Source: Synechococcus sp. KORDI-52
Lineage (GTDB): Bacteria; Cyanobacteriota; Cyanobacteriia; PCC-6307; Cyanobiaceae
Length of the DNA stretch: 64,000 nt
Direction of reading: 5' to 3'
Assembly: GCF_000737595.1 (NCBI RefSeq)
Contig: NZ_CP006271.1
Coordinates: 1,612,001-1,676,000 of the forward strand
Positions 25,355 to 31,330 of the stretch are shown here, piece by piece (position 1 is the first letter of the stretch; each line of letters opens with the position of its first letter). The position numbers and the translations under genes are program-made. Under the pieces are notes generated by a model. It was not told where the DNA came from. It did no database searches and saw only the letters and a program-made list of their open reading frames with translations.

Positions 25355-25703
25355 GGCTGAACGCCTTTGTTGGCTGGGCGGACTCCATCAGATCGATGCC
25401 AGCTGACAACAAACGACTGCGCTGAATCAGCCGACCTGCAGCCTCTTCAATTGATTAGAGGCTCACCCCCAGTTGCCAGGCCAAGAGCCTGTCTTGCTCT
25501 GCTTCGGAGAGGAAGGGATCCAGGCAGTGCAGCAGATGTTCAGTAACCGCTGGTTCTCCAAGATCTTGAATGCCCCCCAGCCGCCAACGCTTGAAGGTGT
25601 CAGGTTCATTGGCCTGTAGCGCTGTAACCAATTCCCCCATCAGGAACAGGGCAGTCGGGTGTCGGTGGTCATGGCTCATGCGTGACTGAAATGAGTGTTC
25701 CCC
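25355..25703. repeat. 349-bp direct repeat, copy 1
   Basis: This segment is repeated at 28651-29000 in the same orientation with many point differences and a one-base indel. It carries the intact small gene at 25455-25679. Flanking sequence on both sides differs between copies, so the duplicated unit is well defined. Confidence 0.85.
25455..25679 (-). CDS. small conserved hypothetical protein (intact copy)
   Basis: A 74-residue helical protein from ATG 25679, with LFLMGELVTALQANEPDTFK and LLHCLDPFLSEAEQDRLLAW. It has no known domain. The paralogous copy at 28751-28969 has two premature stops. A one-base difference near the start shifts the first codons, so the two copies have different N-termini. 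Confidence 0.6.
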   Translation of the reverse strand: MSHDHRHPTALFLMGELVTALQANEPDTFKRWRLGGIQDLGEPAVTEHLLHCLDPFLSEAEQDRLLAWQLGVSL

Positions 25704-28650: not shown

Positions 28651-29000
28651 GCCTGAACGCATTTGTTGGTTGGTCGGACTCCATCAGATCGTTGCCAGCC
28701 GACAACAAACGACTGCGCTTAATCACCCGACCTGCAGCCTCTTCATTTGACTAGAGGCTCACCCCCAGGAGCCAGGCCAGGAGCCTGTCTTGTTCTGCTT
28801 CGTAGAGGAAGGGAGCCAGTCAGTCCAGGAGAAGTTCAGTTACCGCTTGTTCTCCAAGGTCTTGGACACCCCCAAGCAGCCAACGCTAGAAGGTGTCAGG
28901 GTCATTGGCTCGTAGTGCTGTAACCAATTCCCCCATCAGGAACAGGGCAATGCGGGTATCGGTGGTCATGGCTCATGCGTGACTGCCATGAGTGTTCCCC
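28651..29000. repeat. 350-bp direct repeat, copy 2
   Basis: The decayed counterpart of 25355-25703, in the same orientation about 3.3 kb away. It carries the pseudogene at 28751-28969. Confidence 0.85.
28751..28969 (-). pseudogene. decayed paralogue of the 25455-25679 gene
   Basis: From ATG 28969 the frame gives MTTDTRIALFLMGELVTALR and continues parallel to the intact copy, but TAG at 28886-28888 (codon 28) and TGA at 28820-28822 (codon 50) interrupt it before the final TAG 28751-28753. Both stops replace residues present in the intact copy (Lys and Cys). Confidence 0.75.
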
Positions 29001-29020
29001 GCTCTTCTGAAACAAAAAGA

Positions 29021-29042
29021 AGCCCCCGCAAAGGCAGGGGCT
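29021..29042 (-). terminator. Rho-independent terminator
   Basis: Stem AGCCCC/GGGGCT with a small loop; on the minus strand it is followed by TCTTTTTG. It lies 31 bases beyond the DUF3303 gene and probably ends the leftward small-gene chain that begins at 31248. It is nearly identical to the hairpin at 2498-2521. Confidence 0.8.
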
Positions 29043-29073
29043 CCAAAAACATTTGTCAGAGCGTGAGCCTCAA

Positions 29074-29388
29074 TCAGGCACTCATCATTTCGAACAAGTC
29101 CTTGTGGCATGCACAGACCTCCTCATCGGTGAAAGCGGGCTGCATATCGAATTCCACTCCGAACATCGCGCGCCAGGGGGCGAAATGCTTGAACAGAACC
29201 ATGCTGCTTTCTGCTTTGCAGATCACTACGCCACTGCCAGTTTGAGGGCAGTGAGTGCGGCTGATCAATTCGAAGCCGTCAATGTGATCGCCTTCGGCTC
29301 CGCTAGCCATGTACTCAATCAACTTGGCGTAAGCAGCCTTTTGCCCTTCGATCTCGGGGAATTGCCAAGTGACGTTGTAAAGCTGCAT
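29074..29388 (-). CDS. DUF3303 family protein
   Basis: A 104-residue protein from ATG 29388, beginning MQLYNVTWQFPEIEGQKAAY. DUF3303 proteins are small ferredoxin-like-fold proteins found in marine cyanobacteria; no function is established. FKHFAPWRAMFGVEFDMQPA is the most conserved-looking segment. It is the last gene before the terminator of the chain and lies 31 bases from the RHH gene. Confidence 0.75.
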   Translation of the reverse strand: MQLYNVTWQFPEIEGQKAAYAKLIEYMASGAEGDHIDGFELISRTHCPQTGSGVVICKAESSMVLFKHFAPWRAMFGVEFDMQPAFTDEEVCACHKDLFEMMSA

Positions 29389-29419
29389 CTGTTCTGAAAA
29401 GTTAAGCCTCCTTCTAGCA

Positions 29420-29623
29420 CTAGAACCGTGGATTTCGTGCAGCGCAGGCGACATCAGCCTGCTCCTCAATCGCCTTAGCCACTGCATCACGGATGAACTG
29501 GCTTTGATCGTCCAAGCCCCGCAGGTAGGTGTCAACGGACTGAGGGAAGCGAACACATATCGGCTTTTCTGTCACTGGTTCGTCATGTTGCTGCTTGTAC
29601 TGGGTGTCTTCTCTTGGAGTCAT
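29420..29623 (-). CDS. ribbon-helix-helix protein
   Basis: A 67-residue protein: ICVRFPQSVDTYLRGLDDQS has the RHH pattern of a basic beta strand followed by a helix, then FIRDAVAKAIEEQ forms the second helix. Such small proteins bind DNA as dimers and often serve as antitoxins or autoregulators. ATG 29623 overlaps the stop of the GIY-YIG-like gene by four bases (ATGA), so the two are translated together. The dyad at 30735-30774 in the same chain is a candidate operator. Confidence 0.65.
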   Translation of the reverse strand: MTPREDTQYKQQHDEPVTEKPICVRFPQSVDTYLRGLDDQSQFIRDAVAKAIEEQADVACAARNPRF

Positions 29624-30318
29624 TTGCCTTGCTCGTACAGCTTTGCCGCCGTATCAGGAGTGGTGGATTGAGGCAGCTCCCAACCCACGGGTTTGACGCC
29701 TTCCAGGGTGGAGATTCGCTCGTCCCACAGACCCATCATTTGGTATTCACTCTTAAGGATGTAGTTGAGCGGTTTGCCATCAAGGGTGTAACTGGACGAC
29801 TGCTCTTCTTGCTTCTTGGCTCCCATACCAACTGCTGCGCCGAAGCCAGTCCAGATCGCCACGGTGGCATAACCATTTTCGGTCATAGCCCTGGCCACAC
29901 CAGGGACAAGGCCGATGGAGATAAACATGGCGAAAGCACCGCGTGCAAAGCGATCACGCATAAGTTGATCGGGGTTCTTAGTAACAGAAGCCTTTACGCT
30001 CAAAACCTTAATGGCTCGTTTGCTGGTGGATGCTTCCATCCACTCAACAAAGTCCTTGCTCTGCTGATCTGTGAGGTCGACCCATTCACGCCCACCTTGC
30101 TCTGGTGACGTGTAGATGGCGTAGCGCTTGTGAATGTTTGACTCCCAGCTGCGTGCGGCATCGCGGGTGGTGAACGAAGTGGTCTGGATGATGCTGGCCC
30201 TGCCGACGTCGTAATGAGCGGAGATCTGTTTTAGCCGTGTCTGAGGATGCTTGCTGATGTCGATTTTGAAGGCACCGCTGTAGTGATCAAGGACGAGATA
30301 TAGATCGCATTTATCCAT
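29620..30318 (-). CDS. GIY-YIG-like (T5orf172/Mug113) protein with membrane hairpin
   Basis: A 232-residue protein from ATG 30318, preceded by GGAG at good spacing; a longer frame to 30378 is less likely. Residues 1-85 match the T5orf172/Mug113 branch of GIY-YIG domains: YLVLDHYSGAFKIDISKHPQ with Tyr7 and Lys18, Arg28 in TRLKQI, and Glu59 in SWESNIHKRY, the positions that form the nuclease active site. Residues 127-144 and 150-166 are hydrophobic and may form a membrane hairpin. The C-terminal 65 residues are unrecognised. It is coupled on both sides: TGATG with the upstream gene, ATGA with the RHH gene. Confidence 0.65.
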   Translation of the reverse strand: MDKCDLYLVLDHYSGAFKIDISKHPQTRLKQISAHYDVGRASIIQTTSFTTRDAARSWESNIHKRYAIYTSPEQGGREWVDLTDQQSKDFVEWMEASTSKRAIKVLSVKASVTKNPDQLMRDRFARGAFAMFISIGLVPGVARAMTENGYATVAIWTGFGAAVGMGAKKQEEQSSSYTLDGKPLNYILKSEYQMMGLWDERISTLEGVKPVGWELPQSTTPDTAAKLYEQGK

Positions 30319-30700
30319 CAACCTTTCTCCATGAACTTGGTTGCAGCGCCCAAGTAGGCTCGGTGGATTAGTTCCCAATCGATGGCATTTTCGACAGCAT
30401 TGCTATCGCCATTGAGTGCATCGCGGATCTCAGCGAGATAAGGGAAATTTTGACCATTTGGTCCTCATTCCACCAAGTGGTCACCAGTTCAGTGATGGCC
30501 ATGCCAAACAGTTCGGCGACGTTGCTTAGCTGATCAGAGGTGCGGTTCAAAGCATTGAGACCTTCGTCGTTAAGGCCAAGCAGGACTGCCAGAGCGGTCA
30601 GGCGAAGGCCCCAAGCTTCTTTGTCATCAAAACCGCCTTTGACTTGGAGGGTCATGAGCACATCAGCTGCGGCGTACCTGGATTCTCCGGTGAATTGCAT
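30318..30700 (-). pseudogene. hypothetical gene with a -1 frameshift
   Basis: From ATG 30700 a protein-like frame runs 81 codons to WWNEDQ and then shifts: the following protein-like sequence (QNFPYLAEIRDALNGDSNAV, then AIDWELIHRAYLGAATKF and MEKG) is in the -1 frame and ends at TGA 30318-30320, overlapping the next start as TGATG. The unshifted frame continues to 30368 with unconvincing sequence. The shift falls at about 30450-30458, in CAAATGGTCAAAA. It may be a mutation, a sequencing error or, less likely, programmed frameshifting. Family unknown. Confidence 0.6.
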
Positions 30701-30734
30701 GGTGGCCTCGTCTCCGATGTCCACAGCACATCCA

Positions 30735-30774
30735 CGTATACATGGACTTGTCGAGCAATTAGTCCAGGTATACG
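30735..30774. promoter_or_regulatory. dyad with two GTATAC palindromes, candidate operator
   Basis: CGTATACatGGACT and AGTCCagGTATACG form an interrupted inverted repeat around a 12-base centre, and each arm also holds the self-complementary hexamer GTATAC. It lies 35 bases upstream of the start codon at 30700 on the minus strand, where a repressor site would be expected, and 38 bases beyond the end of the pseudogene at 30813. Confidence 0.5.
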
Positions 30775-30812
30775 CGGTTAAGTCCGAAGATCGCCAACCG
30801 GCGCTGCAGATC

Positions 30813-31129
30813 CTATGGATCGCTCTGATGGATGCGATTAGCAACACCTTTGGCCTGCCGGCAGAGGCTCCTGAAGGTCTGCTGGAGATCGCCAATCAGG
30901 TTTGGGTCTAACCCCTGGTTTACATACGCCAGCACGCTTTGCAGGTCTCCAAAGAACATTCTTTCGGCGTCCTCAAACGTCTCAAACGGATAAGCCCTGC
31001 GGATCTATTGCTTGTACCAGGGAACGCGGTTTGCCACTTTGATTCCGCCCATGCTATTGGGGCGCCGCCCACGGGCTTCTGGTCGATATAAAGAGCCTTG
31101 GCTTCTGCCAGCGCCTGTTCAGCGGTCAT
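30813..31129 (-). pseudogene. hypothetical gene with a frameshift and a stop
   Basis: From ATG 31129 (MTAEQALAEAKALYIDQKPV, then SKWQTAFPG) the frame must shift by one missing base near 31020 to reach YKQ, then TAG at 31005-31007, then IRRAYPFETFEDAERMFFGD and QSVLAYVNQGLDPNLIGDLQ to the stop at 30813. All three parts look like one 100-residue protein. Its start overlaps the 40-residue gene upstream by ATGA. Family unknown. Confidence 0.55.
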
Positions 31130-31248
31130 GGCATCCGTGGTGGTGCACCACATTCACTGATGGCTTTGCACCATTGCTGCAGCCAACCCCATTGTTCAGC
31201 CTCAGACAGGTGGCTCAGACGTCTTAATAGTTCAAGGGTCGGAGTCAT
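31126..31248 (-). CDS. 40-residue peptide gene
   Basis: ATG 31248 opens MTPTLELLRRLSHLSEAEQW followed by GWLQQWCKAISECGAPPRMP, a short amphipathic helical protein. Its TGA overlaps the next start by ATGA. It heads the leftward chain of coupled genes ending at the terminator 29021-29042. Confidence 0.5.
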   Translation of the reverse strand: MTPTLELLRRLSHLSEAEQWGWLQQWCKAISECGAPPRMP

Positions 31249-31330
31249 GCTTCGTCCTCGGTAGTAGCCGAGCACTGATGATGCTGGTTGAACGTCTTGT
31301 TAACCCACGTAGTCGATTGAACGTATTGCC

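Follow-up and report, generated by a model that had tools for sequence, protein, structure and literature searches.

We analyzed a cluster of leftward open reading frames (ORFs) at positions 29420–31248 of a 64,000-nucleotide stretch of the Synechococcus sp. KORDI-52 chromosome (NZ_CP006271.1, positions 1,612,001 to 1,676,000; from here on, the window), one of which encodes a 232-residue protein with a GIY-YIG-type nuclease domain. An initial annotation had described a coupled chain of small genes with a common terminator, in which the nuclease-like domain, fused to a predicted membrane hairpin, and a small ribbon–helix–helix (RHH) protein suggested a toxin–antitoxin-like or anti-phage system. 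That observation is partly confirmed: the locus is an ordinary island remnant, and the pairing of the two genes is not supported. We put it at roughly an even call that the locus is the remnant of an island-borne, membrane-tethered GIY-YIG nuclease, that the copy in the window is decaying and that the RHH-like ORF is incidental to it. Foreign or reshuffled genes, forming a patch peculiar to this strain, would then have recombined into a variable chromosomal site, with its left end in the leader of a DUF3303 gene and a T5orf172-type nuclease with a hairpin as its sole recognizable gene; the nuclease copy would be on its way to loss, and the RHH-like ORF would owe its place to the chance of recombination.

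The nuclease domain and its relatives

The N-terminal part of the 232-residue protein, about residues 3–95, matches the Pfam families T5orf172 (29 bits, cut-off 20) and MUG113 (23.5 bits, cut-off 22.3) as well as phrog_681, named "endonuclease" (expectation value, E, 1.3e-6). Tyr7, Lys18, Arg28 and Glu59, which we take to be the catalytic or motif positions, are invariant in a four-sequence alignment. With scores above the curated cut-offs and the Tyr, Lys, Arg and Glu retained, the domain call of the initial annotation holds. The AlphaFold2 model of the full protein, computed from two sequences, has a mean predicted local distance difference test score (pLDDT) of 51 and is usable at best for the N-terminal domain, where it gives a strand–strand–helix–strand–helix order over residues 4–65 and block means of 66–74 in residues 1–70. 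The two top rows of a Foldseek search with this model are the GIY-YIG nuclease Slx1 (probabilities of 0.97 and 0.99, with E values of only 0.033 and 0.12), and no match among the 101 reached an E of 0.001; a sequence search of solved structures with the family profile found none at E up to 1.

The family profile was built from four sequences and, with the window's own genome counted, matched 4 of 34 genomes of the genus, 15 of 400 of the family and 5 of 386 of the phylum. A full-length match within the genus occurred in the own genome and in G242 only. The whole layout of a GIY-YIG domain plus hairpin recurred only in G242 (236 residues, 56% identical) and G228 (899 residues, 32% identical over the shared part), while the proteins of G191, G638 and G705 consist of the GIY part only (117–122 residues). 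The T5orf172 match is above the cut-off in G242, G228, G191 and G638, at 36–38 bits. A search of 50,697 phage and 72,556 plasmid records found no relatives of the window gene, and two viral-contig scans confirmed none; on these results, its carriage by a phage or plasmid was rejected.

Several relatives lie close to genes of phage or integrase type. The G242 gene follows a 229-residue ORF by the same TGATG overlap as seen in the window, and the C terminus of that ORF matches head-assembly families (phrog_1052, E 2.4e-12; phrog_1018, E 1.7e-6); primase/helicase-like and excisionase-like ORFs come 2.5–4 kb further on. In G228, an integrase gene (phrog_1, E 2e-58) is 1.2 kb and a transfer RNA (tRNA) gene, tRNA-Thr, 2.3 kb away. 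A tRNA-Pro gene lies 167 bases from the GIY gene in G638 and 158 bases in G705, with a primase–polymerase and an integrase gene beyond the pair in G638 and a capsid gene in G705. Close to the G191 gene are a gene for Vsr and one for a DUF6339 protein, the latter matching models of defence candidates. The link between nuclease and mobile elements in these relatives is one of proximity and at most suggests membership in an element.

The 899-residue protein of G228 (L012:2989-5688) joins a GIY-YIG domain and two hydrophobic segments to a long arm of LRV/HEAT-like repeats.

The predicted hairpin and the probable decay of the window copy

C-terminal to the GIY-YIG domain, at about residues 122–170, the window protein has a hydrophobic, hairpin-like stretch, which weakly matches phrog_37025 (E 7.8e-4). 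Only in G228 does the corresponding region contain two clear segments (hydropathies of 2.06 and 1.66). By analogy with the SNIPE system described below, the G242 and G228 proteins would carry their nuclease domain at the cytoplasmic side of the inner membrane, where it would cleave mobile-element or phage DNA on arrival, the membrane holding it away from the chromosome.

The window copy departs from its relatives at conserved positions. The glycine of the KIG motif is replaced by Asp20, while all 17 relatives read, the broken sister copy described below among them, have Gly in this column, which was read by eye and from which the broken G206 copy and the G655 fragment were left aside. Trp48, Phe62 and Phe80, present in G242, G228 and G191 alike, have become Ser, Ile and Val. 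The genome holds two copies only, the other (G000:C1:1447145) being 90% identical over 592 bases and interrupted by in-frame TAA and TAG codons; it retains Phe62 and Phe80 and has Arg at position 48. A six-frame T5orf172 search of the genome picked up this broken sister, at 37.7 bits, but left the window copy unlisted. Of the changes assignable to the window branch, with G242 as the outgroup, 23 were nonsynonymous and 5 synonymous, against 3.6:1 expected without selection (binomial test, P = 0.82 against neutrality and P = 0.0009 against an omega of 0.3). Because of Asp20, the three further changed positions, the mainly nonsynonymous changes and the pseudogene sister, the window copy is probably worn and en route to loss, and its product would be expected to have little or no activity.

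Several results weigh against the reading of the locus as the remnant of a membrane-tethered nuclease with a decaying copy. The 19-residue hydropathy of the window copy (1.61) was reached by 118 of 2,000 shuffles and that of G242 (1.54) by 222 of 2,000, weak signals both. A hydropathy of at least 1.6 anywhere in the protein is seen in only six of 17 GIY proteins including the window's (the others in G228, G239, G679, G434 and G083), with the hydrophobic segment of G083 being N-terminal, ahead of the GIY part; the remaining 11 of the 17, G242 among them, are below that value. Regarding decay, 18 changes were unassignable and G242 is a distant outgroup; the pairwise ratio of nonsynonymous to synonymous differences per site (pN/pS) is 0.57, below 1, and leaves room for some past selection, or for selection on one branch; and the window frame is open over all 232 codons while the sister is broken, which remaining selection could explain. 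The best PADLOC match of the 232-residue protein, GajA at 10.8 bits, is at chance level.

Because the hydropathy is borderline in the window and G242 proteins and clear in G228, we consider the hairpin likely for the family and uncertain for the window copy. The annotated fusion of domain and membrane hairpin thus carries over to the family and is weak as a description of the window protein's own hairpin. Judged from the spread of hydrophobic segments, a joining of nuclease and membrane may have arisen repeatedly, though it is not the rule.

Comparison with known systems

SNIPE is a membrane-bound protein that combines DUF4041 with a GIY-YIG nuclease and reportedly cleaves phage DNA as it is injected; loss of the membrane segment makes SNIPE toxic to its host, and the membrane is described as holding the nuclease off host DNA and positioning it where phage DNA enters (PMC13190303). 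The family studied here resembles SNIPE in joining a GIY-YIG nuclease domain to a membrane segment, in our case a predicted one that is weak by hydropathy in the window and G242 proteins and clear in G228, but differs in having the nuclease N-terminal and the hydrophobic part after it, whereas the membrane segment of SNIPE lies N-terminal to the nuclease. The window protein is moreover short and has lost the motif glycine. Neither it nor the G242 protein has a Pfam match to DUF4041 at E up to 1. Because of the reverse order of parts and the lack of DUF4041, the family is not a member of SNIPE; by analogy, it could work by the same logic.

The homing and conflict nucleases of the T5orf172 type, including Odn of phage ICP1, have the same PF10544 domain, are mobile and are linked to phage and satellite conflict; they carry DNA-binding domains of the CapR and RepA_N types, where the present family has a hydrophobic stretch instead (PMC8263062, PMC10448857). 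The PADLOC candidate PDC-S57 weakly matches the GIY part of the relatives in G638 (21.1 bits), G242 (14.8 bits) and G191 (13.6 bits), with no match to the window protein or G705 at E up to 0.1, and we found no publication under this name. Among the titles and abstract openings retrieved on GIY-YIG proteins in Synechococcus and Prochlorococcus, on cyanobacterial islands and on membrane nucleases, SNIPE was the only membrane-joined GIY-YIG nuclease.

The window locus itself is ordinary island decay, and the wider interest lies with the family. The T5orf172 nuclease domain and the principle of a membrane-bound GIY-YIG nuclease are already known, the latter having been shown to cut phage DNA at entry only recently (PMC13190303); the family here is set apart by an N-terminal GIY-YIG domain with a predicted hairpin following it. 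If the reading is true, a second architecture occurs near phage- and integrase-type genes in ocean picocyanobacteria, and the discrimination of foreign from own DNA would have arisen more than once in this form. A more ambitious version, which we hold to be speculative and rather unlikely, is that picocyanobacterial islands carry a small membrane-tethered GIY-YIG nuclease independent of SNIPE, with the nuclease first, the hairpin second and no DUF4041, that cuts invading DNA at the membrane and may use the leucine-rich-variant repeat arm of G228 as a sensor, the window holding a dying copy.

Homing and loss of catalysis as alternatives

The main competing explanation is a free-standing, homing-type selfish T5orf172 gene that copies itself between sites and has incidental neighbors. 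It would account for the second chromosomal copy, whose DNA resembles that of the window from the shared TGATG onward, 10 bases ahead of the start codon, and for the G242 gene, whose resemblance sets in 13 bases ahead of the start. Farther upstream, the ORFs at the three loci are without DNA similarity to one another, which would fit a move of the gene by itself, and the window's upstream ORF, read as joined, had no match at the sister locus or in G242. Homing genes of the T5orf172 type have been reported close to genes for phage capsids and terminases (PMC10448857), and the ORF that precedes the G242 gene is head-assembly-like. A homing enzyme, however, is not expected to have a hydrophobic stretch, no separate DNA-binding domain scored above the Pfam cut-off in the window, G242 or G228 proteins, and both the lack of relatives in the phage, plasmid and viral-contig collections and the mere two copies in the own genome speak against a gene that spreads. 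On balance we consider homing unlikely, though the most serious competitor to a decaying, membrane-tethered nuclease.

Less probable still is a noncutting, DNA-binding or structural protein of the GIY fold, in which Asp20 would be an adaptive loss of catalysis and the protein would still be in use. The frame that is open next to a broken sister and the pN/pS of 0.57 rather than 1 would fit such a protein, but several other conserved positions have changed too and none of the 17 relatives read shares the Asp20 change.

The broken sister copy (L002:1501-2672) runs into the 3′ part of an ORF, another recombination scar; by eye, the ORF joined to it is like one gene close to DUF3303 in G242 and another close to the G222 relative of the RHH-like ORF.

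The RHH-like ORF and the island junction

The 67-residue ORF next to the nuclease gene reaches into the conserved leader of the DUF3303 gene, from which its last 12 residues are read; this overlap, like Asp20 in the nuclease, had escaped the initial annotation. Relatives of the ORF were found in G222, G101, G277, G295 and G304, and four of the five end about where the window ORF enters the leader, that of G295 extending by some residues of its own sequence. None of these five genomes has a GIY gene within 1.5 kb of the RHH relative and, conversely, the stretches examined around GIY relatives, G242 included, contain no match to the RHH-like protein at E up to 0.1. Neighborhoods lacking the RHH gene, which the initial annotation had named as grounds for refutation, are thus what the survey showed. 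Because the relatives stop at the entry of the leader and the two genes are not linked in the relatives, we read the RHH-like gene as a bystander placed by the chance of recombination, its tail being a recombination scar.

The RHH assignment itself is below threshold, the ORF matching DUF6290 at 14.1 bits (cut-off 27). In its relatives, a common KP-x-x-VR start leads into a helix-rich part, a pattern that we assume to be RHH-like. An attempt to confirm the fold by structure failed: the single-sequence model is one long helix (pLDDT 65), and none of the 19 matches in the PDB is an RHH chain, the matches being artificial alpha-repeat proteins. A working toxin–antitoxin-like or anti-phage operon of nuclease and RHH regulator, for which the ATGA overlap of the two ORFs, the open 232-codon frame and the retained Tyr, Lys, Arg and Glu could be cited, is largely refuted by the neighborhoods and very improbable, with the tail of the RHH-like ORF being a recombination junction, relatives of the two genes never being linked in the neighborhoods examined, the RHH call below threshold and the motif glycine lost.

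The DUF3303 gene, its leader and the terminator are kept as one block, covering window positions 29007 or 29002 to 29462 in G242 and G216 and 29023–29474 in G225. Upstream of the leader, G242 and G225 have a 92-residue gene, and the same sequence precedes the leader in G216 (aligned over 200 bases); in the window, the island takes the place of this neighbor. A recombination junction with the island lies at about 29462–29474, inside the DUF3303 leader, as seen in the leader alignment and in the four of five RHH relatives that end near the corresponding position. A scan found two terminator-like sites, against a mean of 2.5 in shuffles, and is alone no evidence. A terminator-like hairpin does exist on the reverse strand at 29044–29019, as annotated, but because gene, leader and hairpin are conserved together in G242, G216 and G225, it most likely belongs to DUF3303, and it is rejected as an argument for linkage within the chain.

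Organization of the locus

The leftward ORFs starting at 31248 (40 residues), 31129 (69 residues), 30318 (232 residues) and 29623 (67 residues) are present as described (Table 1), as are the ATGA overlaps at 31129/31126 and 29623/29620; the TGATG at 30318, however, does not join the nuclease gene to the ORF starting at 30700. The latter ends in a TAA at 30370–30368, and the TGA of the TGATG (30320–30318) closes a different frame, which a stop at 30467 limits to 48 open codons. The arrangement would follow from a frameshift in the 30700 gene or from the meeting of two unrelated frames, and a search of the 33 other genomes of the genus gave no relative by which to tell them apart. The unbroken operon initially annotated was ruled out by this out-of-frame junction, by the 219-base gap (30919–30701) that separates the 31129 and 30700 ORFs and by the separate DUF3303 block, which has a leader and a terminator to itself. 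The DUF3303 gene (29388–29074), a sixth leftward gene located between the RHH-like ORF and the terminator, had been omitted from the chain.

Table 1. Features of the leftward locus and the adjoining DUF3303 block, in window coordinates
Feature	Position	Strand	Remarks
40-residue ORF, ATGA overlap with next ORF	31126–31248	-	searched in family libraries, at GIY-relative loci and within DNA query
69-residue orphan ORF	30920–31129	-	no relatives among 250 other family genomes
110-residue orphan ORF, ending before and out of frame with TGATG at 30318	30368–30700	-	
48-codon open frame closing in TGATG overlap, possibly frameshifted 3′ part of 30700 gene	30318–30464	-	
232-residue T5orf172/GIY-YIG gene with hydrophobic hairpin-like stretch	29623–30318	-	TGA stop adds 29620–29622
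67-residue RHH-like ORF, ATGA overlap with nuclease gene	29420–29623	-	
DUF3303 leader block	29389–29474	-	kept up to 29462 in G242 and G216 and up to 29474 in G225
DUF3303 gene, 104 residues, with own leader; common to several genus-mates, outside island	29074–29388	-	58.4 bits
Terminator-like hairpin, 3′ of DUF3303 gene	29019–29044	-	

The upstream part of the locus is specific to this genome in the collections searched. A joined reading of the 31129 region matched the own genome only among 251 genomes, and the DNA of 30700–31330 matched only the window itself among the best eight candidates in each of 34 genus genomes, many of these candidates being the repeats at 28.9 kb. The window contains no tRNA gene that would mark an island, and a promoter scan was uninformative, its single site comparing with a shuffle mean of 1.4. 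To look for genes of phage or satellite type, 18 proteins from the relatives' neighborhoods were compared with the window and with the sister locus, and none matched at E up to 1e-3.

Other observations

A short GIY-YIG gene lies near a gene for a ResIII/SNF2-type helicase in four genomes, all found by way of the GIY gene. The helicase has 1,171–1,198 residues in G705 and G638 (L037:7315-11274 and L036:2959-7024, respectively), where the two genes are divergent and 90–100 bases apart; in G191 (L090) they are within about 2 kb of each other, and in G206 (L089) a broken GIY copy is about 0.7 kb from the helicase gene. A search starting from the helicase matched 6 of 225 genomes, over most of the length in G191, G206, G023 and G056 and in part in G218 and G111; the 13–14 kb examined around the helicase in G023 and G056 contain no GIY match. 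The best PADLOC matches are partial (DrmD, 34.3 bits). The short GIY gene and the helicase are possibly an undescribed defence pair.

A stretch of ~36 bases with the terminator hairpin after DUF3303 (29013–29048) has copies of 85–93% identity elsewhere in many genomes of the genus, twice or more in some of them. Further left, the stretches 28748–29003 and 25452–25703 are related to each other and recur several more times in the own genome, as well as in many others of the genus; they apparently belong to a multicopy family of small genes, with a 74-residue ORF at 25679–25455, and the copy at 28.9 kb looks degraded.

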